64,000 nt of DNA from Actinomycetota bacterium (GTDB lineage Bacteria > Actinomycetota > UBA4738 > HRBIN12), in the NCBI GenBank assembly GCA_035697485.1, contig DASSCU010000056.1:62001-126000 (forward strand). The letters run 5' to 3'. Made by a program: the position numbers and the translations under genes. Below are positions 51,186-63,651 of this stretch, in pieces. Below the pieces are notes generated by a model. The model made no database searches and had not been told where the DNA came from. It worked only from the letters and a program-made list of their open reading frames with translations. Position 1 is the stretch's first letter; each line of letters begins with the position of its first letter.

Positions 51186-51295
51186 GGCTCGGTCGGCGAC
51201 ATGTTCCGGCCACCAGCAGGCTCACGGAAAGTGGTGCTGGCATCACTGGCACGGCACCCGAGCCGTGGGACGCTTCTACATGGAGGCACATGATC

Positions 51296-51670
51296 ATGAC
51301 CGTCCGAGTCCTCATCGTCGACGACCAGGAGCCGTTCCGCATGGCGGCGCGCATGGTCGTCGACGCCACCGACGGTTTCGAGGTCGTGGGCGAAGCCGAG
51401 ACCGGCGAGGACTCGGTCACGATGGCGGTCGACCTCACGCCCGACCTGGTGCTCATGGACGTGAACCTGCCCGGCATCAACGGCCTCGATGCCACACGCC
51501 AGATCCTCGCGGGCGGCGAGGGCGCGGTGGTCGTGCTCCTGCTCTCGACCTACGAGGAAGCGGAGTACGCGCCTCGTGCCGCCGAGTGCGGCGCCGCGGC
51601 GTACATCCCGAAGGCGGTCTTCGGGCCGGATCGGCTCGAGGATGCGTGGTCCGCCGCGATCGCCAGCTAG
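51296..51670 (+). CDS. Stand-alone receiver (REC) domain protein
   Basis: A 124-residue response regulator consisting only of a receiver: VLIVDDQEPFRMAARMVV, phospho-Asp in LVLMDVNLPGING, LLSTYEEAEYAPRAAECG and Lys in AAYIPKAVFG. No output domain, so it acts by protein contact or as a phosphate sink. The ATG at 51296 is preferred over 51290 because GGAGG (51282-51286) then has a spacing of 9. Convergent with a large histidine kinase gene only 6 bp away, its likely partner; its sequence is of the NarL receiver type. Confidence 0.8.
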   Translation: MTVRVLIVDDQEPFRMAARMVVDATDGFEVVGEAETGEDSVTMAVDLTPDLVLMDVNLPGINGLDATRQILAGGEGAVVVLLLSTYEEAEYAPRAAECGAAAYIPKAVFGPDRLEDAWSAAIAS

Positions 51671-51676
51671 TCCAGC

Positions 51677-53740
51677 TCAGACTACTGGAACGGATCCGCG
51701 GACGGTCGTGCCGTCCCCCGGGGCGCTCTCGATCGTGAGCTCCCCGCCGATCGAGTCGATGCGGTCGGTCATCCCCAGCAAGCCCGACCCGAGCGTCACG
51801 GTACCGGGGTCGAAGCCCGCTCCGTCGTCGGTCACGGTGAACTCGAGCGATCCGTTGCGCTGGGCGAGCCGGATCGAGGCGGACGATGCCGCCGCGTACT
51901 TCGCGATGTTCTGCAAGGCCTCGAGGCAGGAGAAGTAGACGGCCGCCTCGATGTCCTGGTCGTATCGGCCGACGCGGTCGGCCTCCACAGCGACGGGCGT
52001 CGGTGACTTCTGGGCCTGGGCGGCGAGGGCTGCCTCGAGCCCACGGTCGGCGAGCAACGGCGGATAGATGCCTCGGGCGAGATCGCGCAGGTCGTCGATC
52101 GCGGTCTGCGTCTCCGTCTGCAGTTGCGCGAGCATCTCGTGAGCCTTCGCTGCATCGCGCTCCAGCAACGAATCTGCCAGGCGCAGCTTCACGCCGAGCG
52201 CAACGAGTTGCTGCTGCGCTCCGTCGTGGATGTTCCGCTCGAGGCGTCGCCGTTCCTCGTCTTGGGCCGCGACGAGGCGTTGGCGAGAGGCCCGCAACTC
52301 CTCGATCAGGCGAACGTTCCGCAGCACGATGCCCGCTTGCGCCGCGAGGTCGCGCATCAGCTCCGTGCGCCCGGTGTCGATGGGATCGTTCGCGTGCGAC
52401 GTCGCCGTGAGCGCACCGAGCAGCTCACCCCGGTGGCGCACCTCGACCGCGACGTCGGCACCGGCGAATACGGGGAGCAGATCGTCCGCGGGTCGGCGGA
52501 TCGGCATCGCGTCGAGCACCGACGCCGGCCAGGCGGCTTCCGGCCGGAACTCCCCTCCGACGAGCAGCCACACACGCGCCTCCGCCGCTCGGGTGCTCTC
52601 GCCGAGCACGGCAGCCATCCGTGGCAGCACGTCGTCGGTCGCGTAGGCCTCGGACAATCGCTCGGAGAACTCGGTCAACGCCTCGTAGGGCGTGGCTCGA
52701 CCCCCGTACACGATGCGGTCGCCGATCCTGCGTGCGAGCCTCCAGAGCGGCCAGATCAGCGCCCCGATCACGACGCCCGTGATCCCGACCGCCTGCGTCT
52801 CGTCGGGGGCGATGTCGGTCAGCGGGCTGCTGATGGTGAGGAGGACACCGAGGCCGACCGCCATCACGAGCACCACCGTGAGCGCGAAGATCACCGTCTT
52901 CTTGATCACGAGATCGAGGTCGTAGAGGCGGTAGCGCAGCACCGCGATCGCGGTGGCGACGGGCATGGCGAACAGGAGCGAGGTCACGAAGGTGAACCAG
53001 GCGGCGTCGCCCACGGGCGTGTCGCCGGCGACGAGCAACAGCAGGAGGGAGGTGATGACGACGCTGATGCCGTACACGAACCAGCGCAGCTGTTGGCGCT
53101 CGTCGCCCTGTGCCCGTCGGAACCGGACGACGACGGCGCCGACGGCGCCGGCTGCGGCGGACAGTATCGTGATCGTGGCAGCGAGCCCGAGCCACGTCCA
53201 CGAGGCGATCGCCGGGACGGCGAAGGGGTTGGCCACGTACAGGTCGGTTCCCACCATGAAGGTGCTCGGATGGAGCCCGCTCGCGACGAACGCGATCGCC
53301 GTGCCCGAAGCGATCGCCCAACCGACGACCCGCCATCGTGGCGAGGGGAGCCGCCCGGTGGGGAAGAGCAGCAGCGCGAACAGGAGCGAAGCGACCGCCG
53401 GGAGCATCGCGATCGTGGAGAGGAACTGCGCGAGCCCCGGACCGGGGAGCTGCCCTCGGTCGAGCCCGACGATCGAGTACTCGTTCGCGGCGATCAGCAC
53501 GATCACGCTGAGGCCGATCGTCGCGTAGAGCCACCCGATCGGATTCGTGGGCGCCTTCGCAGCGATCACGAGTCCGATCACGGCGAACGCCGTGATGCCG
53601 ATCGCCATGATCACGATCGACGGAAGCTCTCCGGCATCGGTCGTTGGATCCATCGTCGTGAGGACGATCGCGACCACGAGCAGCGTGACGGCGGCCACGC
53701 CGAGCGTGCGGACCGCAGTCCGAGCGCGTTCCGGAGTCAC
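51677..53740 (-). CDS. Multi-pass histidine kinase with GAF and HisKA_3, copy 1
   Basis: A 687-residue sensor kinase: about 10 helices (residues 10-335), a cytosolic linker with DRIVYGGRATPYEALTEFSE, a GAF domain, then DEERRRLERNIHDGAQQQLV (phospho-His near residue 503) and a HATPase with LEALQNIAKYAAASSA and DDGAGFDP. The loop LLFPTGRLPSPRWRVVGW between helices is shared by all three kinases of this region. The GTG start overlaps the stop of a 59-codon kinase remnant. The signal is unknown; hydrophobic or membrane-derived ligands would fit the architecture. Confidence 0.87.
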   Translation of the reverse strand: MTPERARTAVRTLGVAAVTLLVVAIVLTTMDPTTDAGELPSIVIMAIGITAFAVIGLVIAAKAPTNPIGWLYATIGLSVIVLIAANEYSIVGLDRGQLPGPGLAQFLSTIAMLPAVASLLFALLLFPTGRLPSPRWRVVGWAIASGTAIAFVASGLHPSTFMVGTDLYVANPFAVPAIASWTWLGLAATITILSAAAGAVGAVVVRFRRAQGDERQQLRWFVYGISVVITSLLLLLVAGDTPVGDAAWFTFVTSLLFAMPVATAIAVLRYRLYDLDLVIKKTVIFALTVVLVMAVGLGVLLTISSPLTDIAPDETQAVGITGVVIGALIWPLWRLARRIGDRIVYGGRATPYEALTEFSERLSEAYATDDVLPRMAAVLGESTRAAEARVWLLVGGEFRPEAAWPASVLDAMPIRRPADDLLPVFAGADVAVEVRHRGELLGALTATSHANDPIDTGRTELMRDLAAQAGIVLRNVRLIEELRASRQRLVAAQDEERRRLERNIHDGAQQQLVALGVKLRLADSLLERDAAKAHEMLAQLQTETQTAIDDLRDLARGIYPPLLADRGLEAALAAQAQKSPTPVAVEADRVGRYDQDIEAAVYFSCLEALQNIAKYAAASSASIRLAQRNGSLEFTVTDDGAGFDPGTVTLGSGLLGMTDRIDSIGGELTIESAPGDGTTVRGSVPVV

Positions 53741-55063: not shown

Positions 55064-55732
55064 CTACGCCTGTTCCGTCTCCCGAAGGAAGGCCAGCACG
55101 GCCATCACCCGTCGGTGTACGTCGGGCTCCTCGGTGAGATCGAGCTTGTGGAACAGCGAGTTGATGTGCTTCTCGACCGCCCGCTCGGTGAGGAACAGCG
55201 ACTTCGCGATCGCCGCGTTGTTCTCGCCTTGCGCCATGTGGCTCAGCACCTCGCGCTCCCGGCCCGTGAGCGACGAGAGCGGGGAGTGCGCCATGCGATC
55301 CTTCGCGGCCACCAGCGACTCGACGACCTTCGGGTCGAGCACGCTGCCGCCGCGCGCGACCTCGTTGAGCGCGCGGACGACTTCCTCGACGTCGGCCACG
55401 CGTTCCTTCAACAGGTAGCCCAGGCCTGCCGCCCCGTCCTTCAGCAGGTCGTACGCGTACTCCTCGTCGGCGAACTGCGAGAGCACCACCACCCCGACGT
55501 CCGGGTGCTCGGCCCTGATCGCCTTCGCCGCCCGGATGCCCTCGTCGGTGCCGGTGGGAGGCATGCGGATGTCGGTGAGCACCGCGTCGGGCCGTTGGGC
55601 CTCGACCGCGGCGATGAGCTCGTCGTAGGCTTCGGCCGTGCCGACGACGTCGATGTCGTCGACGCCGGAGAGCAGGGCGATGGTCCCCTCGCGAACCAGG
55701 TAGTTGTCCTCCGCGAAGACCACGCGCAGCAT
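55064..55732 (-). CDS. NarL-family response regulator
   Basis: A 222-residue regulator: VVFAEDNYLVREGTIALLSG, phospho-Asp in DAVLTDIRMPPTGTDEG, YLLKERVADVEEVVRALNEV, and a LuxR helix-turn-helix (SSLTGREREVLSHMAQGENN, LFLTERAVEKHINSLFHKLD). A TACCAT hexamer on this strand (55744-55739) ends 6 nt before the ATG, suggesting a leaderless message. It is divergent from the REC-cyclase gene, whose receiver is very similar, so both probably take phosphate from the same kinases. Confidence 0.88.
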   Translation of the reverse strand: MLRVVFAEDNYLVREGTIALLSGVDDIDVVGTAEAYDELIAAVEAQRPDAVLTDIRMPPTGTDEGIRAAKAIRAEHPDVGVVVLSQFADEEYAYDLLKDGAAGLGYLLKERVADVEEVVRALNEVARGGSVLDPKVVESLVAAKDRMAHSPLSSLTGREREVLSHMAQGENNAAIAKSLFLTERAVEKHINSLFHKLDLTEEPDVHRRVMAVLAFLRETEQA

Positions 55733-55776
55733 GCGCGGATGGTACACGGGCACCCCTCGACGGGAAGGCGGACGGC

Positions 55777-57063
55777 GTGAGCATCACGGTCGTGCTCGGC
55801 GAAGACAACGTGCTGGTCCGCGAGGGTGTGCGCGCCCTGCTCGACTCCTACGAGGACATCGAGGTGGTGGGCGTCGCCGAAGATGCCCCCTCGCTCCTGG
55901 AGGCCGCCGCCGAGCACGTGCCCGACGTCGTCGTGACCGACATCAAGATGCCGCCGAGCTTCCAGCTCGAGGGCATCGACTGCGCCCATTCGATCCGGGA
56001 GCTGCACCCCGACACGGGCGTCGTCGTGCTGAGCGCCCACGACGACGAGGAGTACGCGATCGCCCTGCTTGGCGGCGGCCACAGTGGGCTCGCGTACCTG
56101 TTGAAGGACCGCATCGCCCAGGGCGACGAGCTCGCGCGCGCGATCCGTGAGGTGCATGCGGGCGGGAGTACCGTGGATCCGACGATCGCCGAGCGCCTGT
56201 CCGGGCGTGGCGAGGCTGCCGAACGCGACCGCCAGCTGCTCGACATGATGGCGAAGGGCCTCGGGTACGAGGAGATCGCCGCCGCCCTCGGCACGACCCA
56301 GGAGGCCGTCGACCGTCAGGTGACCGAACTGTTCCGCGGCATGGCGGCAGGCGAGGGCTCGGCCGGCTTGGTCGACGAATTCAGGCGGTTGCACTCCGCG
56401 GTCGTCGAGCAGACCGTCTCGCGCAACACGCTCGCGAGCTTCGTGCCTCAGCAGCTCGCCGAGCGACTCGCCTCCCATCCAGAGACCGCGATCGAGCCCC
56501 AGGAGGTCGAGGTGACCGTGCTGTTCAGCGACATCCGGGGCTTCTCGACGATCGCGGAACGGCTCGGGGCCCGAGACGTCGCCGCCGTCGTGGGCCGACA
56601 CCTCGAGGCGATGGCCGAGGTCGTGGCCGCACACGGCGGCACGATCGACAAGTTCCAGGGTGACGCCGTGATGGCCGTCTTCGGCGCTCCCGAGCCGTTG
56701 CCCGACCACGCCGAACGCGCGCTGCGGTGTGCGATCGCGATGCAGCAGCGACAATCCGAGCTGAACGAGGCCGGCTGGGATGTCGTCGACCTGCCCGAGA
56801 TGGGCGTCGGGATCGGGGTGAACACGGGCAGGGTGATCGCGGGCACGGTGGGTGGCGGCGGGCGTCTCGAGTACACGGTCGTGGGCGACGCCGTGAACAT
56901 CGCATCGCGGCTGCAGAACGAGGCGGCCGGTGGCGAGATCGTCGCGACGGCCACCACGGTCGCGGCCTCGGACGGCATCGCGTGCGAGCCGATCGGCATC
57001 CGGCACGTGAAGGGCCGTGAGGAGCCGGTGGAGGTGTTCCGGGTGTCGGGGGCGTTTCGATGA
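55777..57063 (+). CDS. Receiver-HTH-like-adenylate cyclase fusion
   Basis: A 428-residue protein from the GTG at 55777. Residues 1-125: NarL-type receiver (VVLGEDNVLVREGVRALLDS, phospho-Asp near 55 in VVVTDIKMPPSF). Residues about 148-195: a segment spaced like a LuxR helix-turn-helix (LLDMMAKGLGYEEIAAALGT, TQEAVDRQVTELF) but without the usual Glu/Arg signature. From about 245: class III cyclase with VLFSDIRGFSTIAERLG and TIDKFQGDAVMAVFGAP (two metal Asp, Lys for adenine) and YTVVGDAVNIASRLQNE (adenine Asp, transition-state Asn and Arg). All catalytic residues for ATP cyclisation are present, so phosphorylation should control cAMP formation. Overlaps the next kinase gene (ATGA). Confidence 0.87.
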   Translation: MSITVVLGEDNVLVREGVRALLDSYEDIEVVGVAEDAPSLLEAAAEHVPDVVVTDIKMPPSFQLEGIDCAHSIRELHPDTGVVVLSAHDDEEYAIALLGGGHSGLAYLLKDRIAQGDELARAIREVHAGGSTVDPTIAERLSGRGEAAERDRQLLDMMAKGLGYEEIAAALGTTQEAVDRQVTELFRGMAAGEGSAGLVDEFRRLHSAVVEQTVSRNTLASFVPQQLAERLASHPETAIEPQEVEVTVLFSDIRGFSTIAERLGARDVAAVVGRHLEAMAEVVAAHGGTIDKFQGDAVMAVFGAPEPLPDHAERALRCAIAMQQRQSELNEAGWDVVDLPEMGVGIGVNTGRVIAGTVGGGGRLEYTVVGDAVNIASRLQNEAAGGEIVATATTVAASDGIACEPIGIRHVKGREEPVEVFRVSGAFR

Positions 57064-59093
57064 CCCTGAGCGAGCGGCAGCTCCGACGGCTCGCCAACGT
57101 GGCCCTCGCCATCGTCGTCGTCGGGTCGGCCGCCACGATCGCGCTGGAGATCGCTGCCGGGCGTCCCGACGAGGCGGTGTTTTCCGCACTCCTGCTGTCG
57201 TTCCCCGCGGTCGGCTTCTTCGTCCTCAGCCGTCGCCCGGACAATCGCCTCGCCTGGCTGATGGTGGCGATGGGCGTCGGCGTCGCGATCCTGGGCCCCG
57301 TGCAGGGCTACGGCGCCTACGCCATCGAGCACGACCTGCCGTACGGCCCCCTGGGCCTCGCGCTCGGCGGCCCGGGGTGGGTGCCCTTCATCGCGATCTC
57401 CGGGTTCCTGCTCCTGCTCTTCCCCGACGGGCACCTGCCATCGCCGCGCTGGCGATGGTTCGCATGGATGTGCGGCATCGCCATGGCGATCGTCTTCGTG
57501 GCGATCTGGTTCTACCCGGGTGACTTCGCCGACTCCGGCTATCCCGAGATCGAGAACCCGATCGGTATCGAAGCGATCAAGGCGGTCGATGTCGTCTTCG
57601 GGGCCCTGCTGCTCTCGGCTCCTGTGCTCGTGGTCGGTGGCTTCGTCAGTCTCGTCGTGCGTATGCGTCGGACGACCGACGACGTCGTGCGGCATCAGAT
57701 CCGCTGGCTCGCGTACGCGGCGTCAGTCATGGCCCTGCTCTTCGCCCTATCGTTCATCCCCGGGCTCGGCAACGACGACGCGTGGAACTCGTGGATCCAG
57801 AACCTGAGCGCGATGAGCTTCATGCTGATCCCCGTCGCGACCGGGGTCGCCATCCTGCGGTATCGCCTCTACGACATCGACGTCGTGATCCGCAAGACCG
57901 TCGTGATCGCGATCGTCGTGGCCTTCATCGCCCTCGTCTACGTCGGTGTCGTCGCCGGTGTCGGTGCGCTCGTCGGGTCGAGCGGATCCCCGCTGCTCTC
58001 CGCGTTCGCCGCCGGGATCGTCGCCCTCGTCTTTCAACCGGTGCGGGCGCGGGCGCGCAGGTTCGCCGACCGCATCGTCTACGGCAGGCGGGCGACCCCG
58101 TACGAGGTGGTCGCGACGTTCGGCGAACAGCTCGCCGGCACCTACTCCTCCGACGACGTGCTTCCCCGATTGGCGCGTGTGCTCTTCGAGGGCGTGGGCG
58201 CCGAGCGTTCCGAGGTGCGCATGATCGTGGACGAGGGGCTCCGAACGGTCGCGACCTGGCCGCCCGACGCTCACGAGGCCACCGATGACCTCGTGGTTGA
58301 GGTCCGGCACCAGGGGCAGGTGCTCGGTGCCCTCGCCGTGTCGATGCCGGCCAGCGACCCGATCGACCAGACGCGCGAACAGCTCGTGCAAGACCTGGCG
58401 GCCCAGGCCGGGCTCGTGCTGCGGAACGAGCGACTGACCCAGCAGCTCCGTGCCCGCCTGGCCGACCTGCAAGCTGCACAGAAGCGCCTCGTCACCGCGC
58501 AGGACGAGGAACGTCGCAAGCTCGAGCGCAACATCCACGACGGCGCCCAGCAGCAGCTCGTCGCGTTGCAGGTGCGCCAGCGCCTCGCCGAACAGCTGAT
58601 CGATCGCGACCCCGCCGAGGCCAAGGAGATGGTCGCCGCGCTCCAGGTCGACACCGGAGTGGCCCTCGAGGACCTGCGCGACCTCGCTCGGGGCATCTAC
58701 CCGCCGCTGCTGGCCGACAAGGGGCTCGCCGCCGCACTCGAAGCCCAGGCGAGGAAGTCGCCGATCCCCGTGACGGTCGAGGCCGACGGCGTCGACCGCC
58801 TTCCCCAGGACATCGAGGCAGCCGTGTACTTCTCGGTGCTCGAGGGCCTGCAGAACGTCGCGAAGTACGCCCAGGCGACCTCGGCGACCGTCTCGTTCGA
58901 GCGATCGAACGGGGAGCTGCGGTTCCGCGTCCGCGACGACGGGCGCGGGTTCGATCCCTCCGAGACGGGATACGGCACGGGACTGCAGGGCATCGTCGAC
59001 CGTCTCGGAGCGCTCGAGGGTCGCGTCGAGGTCACGAGCGAGCCGGGGGCCGGCGCGACCCTCAGCGGCAGCGTCCCGGTGCCGGCGTCATGA
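57060..59093 (+). CDS. Multi-pass histidine kinase with GAF and HisKA_3, copy 2
   Basis: A 677-residue kinase with the architecture of copy 1: about 10 helices with LLLFPDGHLPSPRWRWFAWM between them, FADRIVYGRRATPYEVVATF linker, GAF domain, DEERRKLERNIHDGAQQQLV (His near 493), IYPPLLADKGLAAALEAQAR and a HATPase ending GYGTGLQGIVDRLGALEG. The ATG overlaps the stop of the REC-cyclase gene and its stop overlaps the start of copy 3, so cyclase and both kinases are made together. The natural reading is that the kinases phosphorylate the cyclase receiver. Confidence 0.9.
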   Translation: MTLSERQLRRLANVALAIVVVGSAATIALEIAAGRPDEAVFSALLLSFPAVGFFVLSRRPDNRLAWLMVAMGVGVAILGPVQGYGAYAIEHDLPYGPLGLALGGPGWVPFIAISGFLLLLFPDGHLPSPRWRWFAWMCGIAMAIVFVAIWFYPGDFADSGYPEIENPIGIEAIKAVDVVFGALLLSAPVLVVGGFVSLVVRMRRTTDDVVRHQIRWLAYAASVMALLFALSFIPGLGNDDAWNSWIQNLSAMSFMLIPVATGVAILRYRLYDIDVVIRKTVVIAIVVAFIALVYVGVVAGVGALVGSSGSPLLSAFAAGIVALVFQPVRARARRFADRIVYGRRATPYEVVATFGEQLAGTYSSDDVLPRLARVLFEGVGAERSEVRMIVDEGLRTVATWPPDAHEATDDLVVEVRHQGQVLGALAVSMPASDPIDQTREQLVQDLAAQAGLVLRNERLTQQLRARLADLQAAQKRLVTAQDEERRKLERNIHDGAQQQLVALQVRQRLAEQLIDRDPAEAKEMVAALQVDTGVALEDLRDLARGIYPPLLADKGLAAALEAQARKSPIPVTVEADGVDRLPQDIEAAVYFSVLEGLQNVAKYAQATSATVSFERSNGELRFRVRDDGRGFDPSETGYGTGLQGIVDRLGALEGRVEVTSEPGAGATLSGSVPVPAS

Positions 59094-61189
59094 TCACGTC
59101 CGACGATCGCCGAGCGAGCTGGCCCTGGTTCGTCCTCGCGGGGTTCATCGCGATCGCGGTCGTCGGGACCGTGCTCGTTGCCGCCAACGACGAACCCCTG
59201 GGTGCGCAGGTCCCGTACATCATCGCGTTCTCGATGTTCGGGGCGGTCGGCGCGATGATCGTCAGCCGTGACCGGAGGAACGCGGTCGGTGTCCTCCTGC
59301 TCTGGGGATGCTTCACGACGGCGATGTCGTTCATGTCCGGCGAGCTCGCCACGTGGCTCTACGAGCGTGGGGACTCTACCCTCATGACCCGGCTCATGGG
59401 CCTGTTGTCGGGATTCGGATGGTTGTTCGGCATCCTCCCGGTCCTCTTCCTCCTGCCCCTGCTGTTCCCCGATGGTCACCTTCCGTCGCCACGATGGAAG
59501 CCGTTCCTCTGGTGGATCCTCGGGATGTTGTTCGTTCTGTTCATCGCGCTGACCCTCGGTTCCCCCACCGTGAGCACGTCGAGCGACACGATCGTGCTCG
59601 ACAACCCGCTGCACATCGAAGCCCTCGAACGGCTCGCGATCCCCGACGCCGTCTTCGCGGTCCTCTACTTCGGGACGTGGGCGGTCTCCGTCGCGTCCGT
59701 GTTCATCCGGTTCCGCCGGGCCGGCGGCGTTGAACGCCAACAGATCAAGTGGGTCGCGTTCGGGCTGCTCGCAGCCTTCGTCGCGATCCTCGTCTCCGAC
59801 TCCGTGGATGACGCGACGCTGTCCGCGGTCGTCGGCGGCGCCGGGTTCCTCGCGTTCCCGATCTCGATCGGCATCGCGGTCCTGAAGTTCCACCTCTACG
59901 ACCTCGACGTGGTCGTGAAGCGGGCGGTCGTCTACGCGGCGCTGGCCGTGTTCGCGACGCTCGTCTACCTCACGGTCGTGGTGGGCGTGGGGGCGTGGCT
60001 GGGGCGCGACAGCTCCATCCTGACGATGCTCGCCGCCGTCATCGTGGCGGTCACGTTCCAGCCGGTGCGGGCGCGGTTGACGAAGTTCGCCGACCGCCTC
60101 GTCTACGGACGCAGGGCCACGCCGTACGAGGTGCTCGCCGACTTCGCGGAACGGGTCGGCGAGGCCTACCGTGACGACGACCTCCTTCCCCGCATGGCGC
60201 GCGTGCTCGGGGAGGGGGTCGGGGCCGAGCGTGCCGACGTCTGGCTGAAGGTCGACGACGATCTTCGCGACGTGGCGGTGTGGCCCGCTGACGCTCCGAG
60301 GCTCGGCGTCGCGCCGCTCGACAGCCGGGACGTCCCTGCTCTGCAGGGTGCCGACCGCGTCTACCGGGTCGAGCACGCCGGTGAGCTCCTCGGCGCGCTC
60401 GCCGTTCGCAAGCCGCCGAGCGACCCGATCTCGCCCGCCGACGACAAGCTGATCTCGGACCTCGCGGCGCAGGCCGGGCTCGTGCTCCGCAACGTGCGAC
60501 TCACTGAGGAGCTCCGGGCGCGCTTCGAGGACCTCCGCGCGGCGCAGAAGCGGATCGTGGCGGCGCAGGACCGGGAACGTCGCCGGCTCGAGCGCAACAT
60601 CCACGACGGCGCCCAGCAGCAGCTCGTGGCGCTCGCCGTGAAGACCCGTCTCGCTCGCGGCCTGACCGAGCGAGATCCGGCGAAGGCAGCCGAGATGCTG
60701 ACCCAGGTCGAGTCCGAGACCCAGGAGGCGCTCGAGGATCTCCGCGACCTCGCCCGGGGCATCTACCCGCCGCTGCTGGCGGACAAGGGCCTGGAAGCCG
60801 CGCTCATCGCGCAGGCCCGGAAGTGCCCCGTGCCGGTCGAGGTCGCGGCAGACGACGTCGACCGCTTCCCACAGGAGGTCGAGGCGGCCGTGTACTTCTC
60901 GGCGCTGGAGGCTCTGCAGAACACGGCGAAGTACGCGGACGCGTCGCGGGCGACGGTGACCCTGAGCCGCGCGAACGGATCCCTCGAGTTCGCCGTCGCC
61001 GACGACGGTCGTGGGTTCGACCCCGGCGCGACCGGCTACGGTACGGGTCTGCAAGGTATCGCTGACCGCCTCGGCGCGCTCGACGGCGAACTCGAGGTCA
61101 CGAGCCGTCCCGGATCGGGCACGACGGTGCGGGGCCGCCTGCCGGTCGACGCGCAGACGCGCGTCGTCGAGGAGAGGGCTACCTCATGA
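59090..61189 (+). CDS. Multi-pass histidine kinase with GAF and HisKA_3, copy 3
   Basis: A 699-residue kinase, closest to copy 2: helices from about residue 12 to 325 with LLFPDGHLPSPRWKPFLWWI, linker FADRLVYGRRATPYEVLADF, GAF domain, DRERRRLERNIHDGAQQQLV (His near 505) and a HATPase with LEALQNTAKYADASRA, DDGRGFDPG and GYGTGLQGIADRLGALDG. ATGA overlaps on both sides. Since copies 2 and 3 are so alike they may form heterodimers that integrate two signals. Confidence 0.9.
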   Translation: MITSDDRRASWPWFVLAGFIAIAVVGTVLVAANDEPLGAQVPYIIAFSMFGAVGAMIVSRDRRNAVGVLLLWGCFTTAMSFMSGELATWLYERGDSTLMTRLMGLLSGFGWLFGILPVLFLLPLLFPDGHLPSPRWKPFLWWILGMLFVLFIALTLGSPTVSTSSDTIVLDNPLHIEALERLAIPDAVFAVLYFGTWAVSVASVFIRFRRAGGVERQQIKWVAFGLLAAFVAILVSDSVDDATLSAVVGGAGFLAFPISIGIAVLKFHLYDLDVVVKRAVVYAALAVFATLVYLTVVVGVGAWLGRDSSILTMLAAVIVAVTFQPVRARLTKFADRLVYGRRATPYEVLADFAERVGEAYRDDDLLPRMARVLGEGVGAERADVWLKVDDDLRDVAVWPADAPRLGVAPLDSRDVPALQGADRVYRVEHAGELLGALAVRKPPSDPISPADDKLISDLAAQAGLVLRNVRLTEELRARFEDLRAAQKRIVAAQDRERRRLERNIHDGAQQQLVALAVKTRLARGLTERDPAKAAEMLTQVESETQEALEDLRDLARGIYPPLLADKGLEAALIAQARKCPVPVEVAADDVDRFPQEVEAAVYFSALEALQNTAKYADASRATVTLSRANGSLEFAVADDGRGFDPGATGYGTGLQGIADRLGALDGELEVTSRPGSGTTVRGRLPVDAQTRVVEERATS

Positions 61190-61386
61190 CCGCTCGGACA
61201 ACCGCTCGGCCGCGGGGCTTCCGCCGGTTCGAGCGATGGCTGATCGGGCTCGCCTTCGCGGTCATGGCGTTCGTGCTCGAGAAGGTCGTGATGCGCTCGG
61301 TGCGCAAGAAGGGCGCCTCCGAGCCCGAAGAGGTCACGACGATGATCTCCAAGGGCGGGGAGGTCGACGTCGACCTCGATCTCTAG
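61186..61386 (+). CDS. 66-residue single-helix membrane protein
   Basis: Last gene of the cyclase-kinase operon (ATGA overlap with copy 3). A basic N-terminus (RTTARPRGFRRFERWLIGLA), one helix at about residues 19-37, a basic patch (RSVRKKG) and an acidic C-terminus (EPEEVTTMISKGGEVDVDLD). No family recognised. It may be a membrane accessory of the kinases; position is the only evidence. Confidence 0.6.
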   Translation: MTARTTARPRGFRRFERWLIGLAFAVMAFVLEKVVMRSVRKKGASEPEEVTTMISKGGEVDVDLDL

Positions 61387-61397
61387 TCCAGCTCGGA

Positions 61398-63512
61398 CTA
61401 GCGGCGTCGCCGCACGAGGTCGATCACGAGGCCCAGGGTCAGCAACAGGGCGCCGGCACCGAACGTCACCGGCAGCCACGCGGGCACGCGGTCGCTCACC
61501 GCGGTGAGCGCCGTGCCGAGGATCGCCGCACCGGCGGTGAGCGCGAGCGCCAGTCGCCGTCCGGCCCGACGGATCGTGATCTCGAGCGACGCGGCTCGGA
61601 AGTTCACCTCGAGCTTCTGACCCGGTCGTGCGCCGATCAGTCGCTCGACCGCCTCGACGACGCGGTGGAAGCGCACCTTGAACCGCTGCGCCTGATAGAA
61701 GAGCGCCTTCGGATCGGCCTTCGTGGTCATGTCGCGCACCAACGCCCGCATCAGGAACGACCCGGCCACGTCGAACGGGTCGAGATCGGGGTCGAGCTCG
61801 GCCGTCGCGAGCTGCATCTGGGCGAGTGCCTTGCCGGTCAGCGCGAGCGAAGCCGGCAGTGGCACCTCGTGGCGCAACGAGATCTCCGTCATCTCCTGCA
61901 GGATCGGCCCGAGCTGGATGTCGCTGAGCGACGCCGTGCGGTACTTCGCCACCATCTCTCCGATCTCGACGCCGAACGCGTCGACGTCGAGGTCGGTGCG
62001 GTCCATCGCGCCGGCGAGCATCAGCGAGACGTCGGTCAGGAAGGGCACGTCTTCCTGCCAGAACGCCATCAGCAGCAACATCATCTGCTCCCGCATCTCT
62101 GGGCCGACCTCGCCCACCATGCCGAGGTCGAGCAGGTAGAGCGTGTCGTCGGCCGGGCGCCACATCAGGTTGCCCGGATGCGGATCGGCGTGGAAGAACC
62201 CGTCGACCATGATCTGCTTGTAAAAGCTCTCGAGCAGCTGTCGCGCAGCTTCCTTGCGGGCGGGGCCTTCCGGCGCCAGCGAGATCGGACCGCCCTGCAC
62301 GTCCTGCATGACGAGCAGCCTCGACGTGGAGAGGTCACCGTGCACCTGGGGCACGCGCAGACGGGAGTAAGGCGCGATGCTCTCCCGCATCCGGGCCATG
62401 TTCCCGGCCTCCTCGCGGAAGTCGAGCTCGCGGTGCAGCGAGGTCGACAGGTGTTCGAAGACGGCCTGCATGTCGATCACCTGTCGCAGGCCCGGCCGAT
62501 CGGCGATCTTCTCGGCGAACACCTCGAGCAGCGCCAGGTCCTGCTCGATCTGCTCGCGGGCGTCGGGGCGCTGGATCTTCGCCACCACCGGGTCGCCGGT
62601 GGCGAGCGTGGCTCGATGGACCTGCGCGATCGTGCCGGCGGCCAGCGGCGACGGATCGATGTGGTCGAACACGTCCTCCCACGGCACGCCCAGCTCCTGC
62701 TCCATCACCTGCACGACCTGCTCCTCGCTGAGCGGCGGCACGTTGTCCTGCAGGGTCGCGAGCTCCTCGATGTACTCCGGCGGGAGCAGGTCGGGGCGGG
62801 TCGAAAGGATCTGGCCGAGCTTCGCGAACGTCGGCCCGAGTTCCTCGAGCGCGGCCCGTAGCCGCTTGCCCTGTCGGCGTCGCCCGACCGCTCCCTCCTC
62901 GTCCGGGCGCCCGAAGAGCTCCTTCAGGCCGTGCTTGGCGAAGACCGCGGCGATATGGCCGCCCCTCGCGGTCAAACGGGGGGTGATCTCGACCTCCTCG
63001 GCCGCGCTGATGCGCACCCGGGCCGACGTGGGCCGGGGCACGGTCGGCGTCACCTGGCCGTCGCCCGCGGTGTTGACGATGATCACCGTGCAACGCGCGT
63101 TGTGGCTGATGCGATTGGGCACGTTCCCGAGCAGGAACTCCTTGCGACCGGCCATGCCGGCGTTGCCGACGACGAGGACGTCGATCGACCGTTCCTCGGT
63201 GGCCTCGACGATCGCCATGGCCGGATCGTCGTGGATCACCACGTGGCCGTGTCCGCGGTCGCCGGCGACCGTGCGCGCGTACGTCTGCAGGTCGTCGGCC
63301 GCGGACCGTGCGCGTGTGGCCTCGGCGGCGCCGTACTCGGTGTCGGCCGCACTCGACGGCACGATCACCTGCACGATGTGCAGCTCGGCGCCGAACGCCT
63401 CGGCGAACGTCGCCGCCCACCGCACTGCGCGCTCGGCCGTCTGCGAACGGTCGGTGCCGACCATCACGCGCTCGATCGGACCGGAGATCTCGGGCTGGGC
63501 CTCAGCGTTCAT
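61398..63512 (-). CDS. Universal-stress-domain/UbiB (ABC1/ADCK) kinase fusion
   Basis: A 704-residue protein from the ATG at 63512. Residues about 13-145 are a universal stress domain (RVMVGTDRSQTAERAVRWAA, VGNAGMAGRKEFLLGNVPNR with the full G-x2-G-x9-G loop). Residues about 175-640 are a UbiB/ABC1 kinase: GPTFAKLGQILSTRPDLLPP (KxGQ), PSPLAAGTIAQVHRATLATG (Ala-rich loop), VVAKIQRPDAREQIEQD (Lys), HRELDFREEAGNMARM (Glu), FFHADPHPGNLMW and LYLLDLGMVGEVG. Two helices form the C-terminal anchor (about 655-700). ABC1 proteins support isoprenoid-quinone and lipid metabolism through an atypical ATPase; here the stress domain probably adds nucleotide or stress control. Confidence 0.87.
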   Translation of the reverse strand: MNAEAQPEISGPIERVMVGTDRSQTAERAVRWAATFAEAFGAELHIVQVIVPSSAADTEYGAAEATRARSAADDLQTYARTVAGDRGHGHVVIHDDPAMAIVEATEERSIDVLVVGNAGMAGRKEFLLGNVPNRISHNARCTVIIVNTAGDGQVTPTVPRPTSARVRISAAEEVEITPRLTARGGHIAAVFAKHGLKELFGRPDEEGAVGRRRQGKRLRAALEELGPTFAKLGQILSTRPDLLPPEYIEELATLQDNVPPLSEEQVVQVMEQELGVPWEDVFDHIDPSPLAAGTIAQVHRATLATGDPVVAKIQRPDAREQIEQDLALLEVFAEKIADRPGLRQVIDMQAVFEHLSTSLHRELDFREEAGNMARMRESIAPYSRLRVPQVHGDLSTSRLLVMQDVQGGPISLAPEGPARKEAARQLLESFYKQIMVDGFFHADPHPGNLMWRPADDTLYLLDLGMVGEVGPEMREQMMLLLMAFWQEDVPFLTDVSLMLAGAMDRTDLDVDAFGVEIGEMVAKYRTASLSDIQLGPILQEMTEISLRHEVPLPASLALTGKALAQMQLATAELDPDLDPFDVAGSFLMRALVRDMTTKADPKALFYQAQRFKVRFHRVVEAVERLIGARPGQKLEVNFRAASLEITIRRAGRRLALALTAGAAILGTALTAVSDRVPAWLPVTFGAGALLLTLGLVIDLVRRRR

Positions 63513-63651
63513 GCGCGCATCATGGCGGTTCGCGGCCCCGGCGACCAGGCGGTTGTCTGTCGTATCCGCCGCGGGAAACCGAATGCCGTCGGAGGGTGGC
63601 AGCACCCACATGGAACGGGAGAGTCAGGGACGGAGATCTCCAGGTTGGATC

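Follow-up and report, generated by a model that had tools for sequence, protein, structure and literature searches.

The window analysed here is a stretch of 64,000 nucleotides on contig 56, and the genome it comes from measures 3.4 Mb. It carries four consecutive genes on the forward strand, at 55777-57063, 57060-59093, 59090-61189, and 61186-61386, and each shares an ATGA (a 4-base overlap) with the next. The first encodes a response regulator of 428 amino acids in which Pfam recognizes a receiver (Response_reg, 61.7 bits) and a class III cyclase (Guanylate_cyc, 87.3 bits). As a helix-turn-helix (HTH) lies between them, it is called the REC-HTH-cyclase protein here. The second and third encode the paralogous multi-pass histidine kinases HK1 and HK2, both with HisKA_3 and HATPase_c domains in Pfam; HK1 has about 10 predicted membrane helices and an intact H-box. 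A NarL-type response regulator (55064-55753, reverse strand; Response_reg and GerE in Pfam), paralogous to the receiver and HTH part of the cyclase protein, is encoded divergently. Its start lies 23 bases from that of the cyclase gene, a distance that grows to 44 bases with its second possible start, and the two receivers share 54% identity over 127 residues. A preliminary description had reported the operon coordinates and gene order up to 61386, the receiver-cyclase fusion, the two co-translated paralogous kinases, and a divergent NarL regulator with a very similar receiver, and our analysis bears out each of these points. Two members of the recurring gene set were absent from that description, namely HK3, a third paralogous HisKA_3 kinase (51677-53740, reverse strand) assigned from Pfam and the loci of relatives, and a single-domain receiver of 126 amino acids (51290-51670, forward strand). 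The latter is found near the module in about half of the genome pieces from relatives and could possibly serve as a phosphate sink or a third output.

The fourth gene (61186-61386, forward strand) encodes a single-pass membrane protein of 66 amino acids, which had been counted as part of the operon. The ATGA overlap agrees with this, and by position the gene is co-transcribed. Its membership in the signaling module is doubtful, since in most relatives it adjoins a UbiB/ABC1-like gene, including cases in which the cyclase operon is located at another site (L049, L052, and L053, with weak scores). We therefore judged it unlikely to be a module component, and it appears to go together with the gene that follows. 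That gene (61398-63611, reverse strand) encodes a universal stress protein domain fused ahead of a UbiB-like atypical kinase.

The domain layout of the REC-HTH-cyclase protein was derived from Pfam, AlphaFold models, hhalign with shuffled controls, and Foldseek. The receiver (residues 3-127; 55777-56157) is followed by a three-helix HTH (residues 144-191; 56206-56349), linker or transducer helices (residues 196-233), and the cyclase (residues 242-427; 56500-57057), all on the forward strand. The receiver contains the acidic pair E9/D10, the phospho-acceptor D55, S86, and K110, the complete active-site set of a response regulator. D10, D55, S86, and K110 are invariant in all 31 alignment rows that cover them. 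Judged from these residues and those of the catalytic domain described below, both the receiver and the cyclase look functional.

The segment between receiver and cyclase, earlier noted to be spaced like a LuxR HTH, gave only matches below the cut-off in Pfam (Sigma70_r4_2, 18.3 bits; GerE, 15.7 bits), so profile comparison with shuffled controls was used instead. Aligned by hhalign with the HTH profile of the neighboring NarL family, it reached a probability of 96.8 and a score of 61.6 over 47 columns, against a best score of 21.1 among 100 column shuffles and 16.6 for the reversed profile. The whole-family profile also aligns with DevR, VraR, and NarL over the receiver and the HTH. Furthermore, a Foldseek search with residues 1-207 ranked full-length LiaR, VraR, spr1814, and DesR first, over about 200 columns and with high rmsd, presumably due to a different orientation of the receiver and HTH domains. 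By homology, then, the middle segment is a real, albeit degenerate, NarL/LuxR-type HTH, which confirms the earlier suggestion.

Whether this HTH still binds DNA is a separate matter. Its fold and hydrophobic core are retained, and in members from the window's class a TQEAVDRRVTELF-like helix bearing one or two arginines is conserved, as expected if the protein combined cAMP formation with a role as transcription factor, or if it paired with its NarL paralogue to bind promoters as a heterodimer. The recognition helix of the NarL neighbors, however, is almost invariant (RAVEKHINSLFHKL), and its core, EKHIN, is missing from every cyclase-bearing member. In other families Asp, Glu, or Ala occupies these positions of the helix, and the HTH is more acidic in the cyclase proteins, with mean net charges of -3.6 and -2.6 versus -0.9 in the NarL neighbors. 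The fourth helix of GerE domains makes the dimer. In the models the HTH helices are predicted at residues 144-159, 164-171, and 175-190, and the fourth GerE helix is absent, its place being taken by a helix that runs from residue 196 towards the cyclase; the models are uncertain at the junction between HTH and cyclase, with pLDDT below 50 for residues 192-222. By analogy with known class III cyclases, this linker helix is probably a coiled coil. Taken together, we consider retained DNA binding unlikely, and the HTH is better described as vestigial.

The cyclase domain keeps the catalytic residues of class III enzymes. The metal-binding D252 and D296 and the transition-state residues N374 and R378 are unchanged in 32 of 32 family members, and the adenine-selecting pair in the window protein is K292/T367. 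Cya2, CyaB, and CyaC are the solved structures closest in fold according to Foldseek. In the sequence alignment the window protein has Lys/Thr as does the adenylyl cyclase CyaB, whereas in the guanylyl cyclase Cya2 Glu takes the place of this Lys; adenylate cyclase activity has been reported for the Cya2 variant E488K (PMC5995499). The previous statement that all residues for ATP use are present thus stands for the window protein. It does not extend to about half of the relatives, in which Lys is replaced by Gln: among the 32 family members, 16 have Gln and 1 has Asp at position 292, and Ser replaces Thr at position 367 in 12. The purine-selecting Lys is changed in the cyclase domains L050 and L067-L082 (to Asp in L081, otherwise to Gln), often together with Thr to Ser. 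Going by these residues, altered substrate choice is possible in such relatives, and cAMP cannot be assumed to be their product. The same substitutions are what would speak for a product other than cAMP, or a relaxed purine choice, in the family at large. Given the K/T pair, the ATP pattern, in the window protein and most of its class, we regard this as very improbable.

We then looked for the same domain order in other genomes. REC-HTH-cyclase proteins occur in 17 of the 27 genomes of the window's order, where full-length orthologues are 67-89% identical, and in about 20 further genomes among 397 sampled Actinomycetota, at 44-50% identity. Searching at class level gave no genomes beyond the 27 found at order level. 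A pattern-based, non-exhaustive contig scan yielded no full-length relative outside the Actinomycetota. The linkage to the neighboring genes is conserved. HisKA_3 kinases are present in 26 of 33 genome pieces around the cyclase gene, and in 19 of these pieces one lies directly downstream on the same strand; with 19 HisKA_3 genes in the window genome of 3.4 Mb, a HisKA_3 gene would be expected within 8 kb by chance in about 8.5% of cases. Some relatives (L051, L053, L065, and L066) have no kinase in the stretch examined, which counts against coupling to kinases. Among the loci examined from the class, two kinases in a row behind the cyclase gene are confined to the window's genus, and the kinase directly downstream in close relatives matches HK2 best. 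In the 27 genomes of the order, the NarL and cyclase genes occur together in 15, the cyclase alone in 2 (at contig ends in both), NarL alone in none, and neither in 10 (Fisher p 8e-6, uncorrected for kinship).

This conserved linkage also bears on the role of the receiver. Class IIIb cyclases respond to bicarbonate, and the class IIIb-like K/T pair is shared with CyaB. The cyclase might accordingly be controlled mainly without phosphorylation, for instance by bicarbonate, leaving the receiver as a structural dimerizer or a phosphate sink. The invariance of the receiver active site in the 31 rows and the retention of the kinases across the phylum both argue otherwise, and we deem such control as unlikely as retained DNA binding, if not slightly more so.

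The phylogenetic trees point to a single origin. In a tree of the receiver and HTH, all 31 REC-HTH-cyclase proteins group together (100/98), and the clade of neighboring NarL regulators is their sister. The joint node (95/87) also includes one other NarL of the window's own genome, and the remaining NarL-type regulators of that genome fall outside. A tree of the cyclase domain only, a quick tree with limited outgroups, likewise recovered one clade (96) with much the same inner order. As each tree places 31-32 of these proteins in a single clade, one duplication of a NarL-type regulator and one fusion of a cyclase behind its HTH account for the family. A clade restricted to the cyclase proteins and their NarL neighbors was weakly rejected (p 0.03), because the additional NarL, encoded on contig C51, falls inside; in these trees the single origin of the cyclase proteins is unaffected by its placement. 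The single-origin trees, the conserved gene neighborhood, and the conserved active sites give good support to the earlier idea that the output was changed by extension of a LuxR-type regulator. On the same three grounds, coupling of the kinases to the cyclase is well supported at the sequence level.

The system had been described as a phosphorelay, a term that our results do not support. Pfam found no receiver or HPt domain in the three kinases, no HPt domain in the nine genes scanned, and no hybrid kinase. Instead, we consider it likely that the locus encodes a branched two-component system of single origin, in which the kinases act on both the cyclase protein and the NarL regulator and the vestigial HTH and linker transmit the signal to the cyclase. 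The membrane kinases HK1, HK2, and probably HK3 would autophosphorylate and hand the phosphate on to the REC-HTH-cyclase protein, at D55, as well as to its NarL paralogue and perhaps the single-domain receiver. Phosphorylation would dimerize or reorient the receiver, and the HTH, probably no longer DNA-binding, would relay this change together with the linker helix to the cyclase dimer. The rate of cAMP formation from ATP would thereby be altered, by activation rather than inhibition, we infer. A single input would thus have two outputs, a transcriptional one through NarL and a second-messenger one through cAMP. In a variation on this scheme, the vestigial HTH would be an active pairing module through which the cyclase protein dimerizes with its NarL paralogue. 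Phosphorylation would then choose between DNA-binding homodimers and cAMP-making dimers, and gene control and cAMP would be coupled by competition; we rate this as quite improbable.

Under the branched two-component system, cAMP may have its targets among the genome's 18 cNMP-binding domains, none of which is linked to the cyclase protein. The genome also has 46 matches to class III cyclase domains, a point against the proposed system, and the share of the REC-HTH-cyclase protein in cellular cAMP is therefore uncertain. About 8 of these domains cluster at C37:76692-87011. A second, plain receiver-linker-cyclase protein is encoded on contig C51 (2025-3077); a NarL belonging to the same clade and a HisKA_3 kinase lie roughly 3 kb away. 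The proposed system would connect membrane kinases to cAMP in genomes with many class III cyclases, for most of which the inputs are unknown. It would also exemplify a change of response-regulator output, in which a DNA-binding domain shed its recognition residues and stayed on as a scaffold, and a cyclase was appended behind it once, in an old lineage of Actinomycetota. Since a parent-like NarL paralogue adjoins the cyclase gene, this change of output is directly testable.

Like LiaR, VraR, and DesR, NarL/FixJ-type regulators of which the last works with the HisKA_3 kinase DesK, the window protein has a receiver and a LuxR-type HTH with the same spacing, it is adjoined by multi-pass HisKA_3 kinases, and the neighboring NarL regulators are its sister group. 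It differs from them in that neither the usual recognition residues nor the fourth helix is present in its HTH, behind which comes a class III cyclase. The cyanobacterial CyaC, in which autophosphorylation and phosphotransfer lead to activation (Kasahara and Ohmori 1999, as cited in PMC1183210), likewise fuses a phospho-acceptor receiver to a class III cyclase; the window protein, by contrast, carries a vestigial LuxR HTH behind its receiver, with the kinases being membrane proteins in their own right. The working principle proposed here resembles that of the REC-GGDEF diguanylate cyclase DgcR, in which receiver phosphorylation shifts a coiled coil and repositions the catalytic dimer (PMC8041772), although the catalytic domain and product are different and the window protein has an HTH between the receiver and the linker helix. 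A coiled coil acts in a comparable way in cyclase transducer elements (PMC5995499). Cyclase and LuxR domains are combined in one protein in the mycobacterial CHD+LuxR proteins (Rv0386 group), which, as far as described in a LuxR census of 53 Actinobacteria species, are confined to Mycobacterium and lack the receiver present in the window protein (PMC3466318). In the parts of that census consulted, a REC+LuxR+CHD architecture is not named, and a survey of this kind would miss a degenerate HTH. Both receiver-fused class III cyclases and fusions of LuxR domains with cyclases are known, and we judge the REC-HTH-cyclase protein to be a new variant among them.
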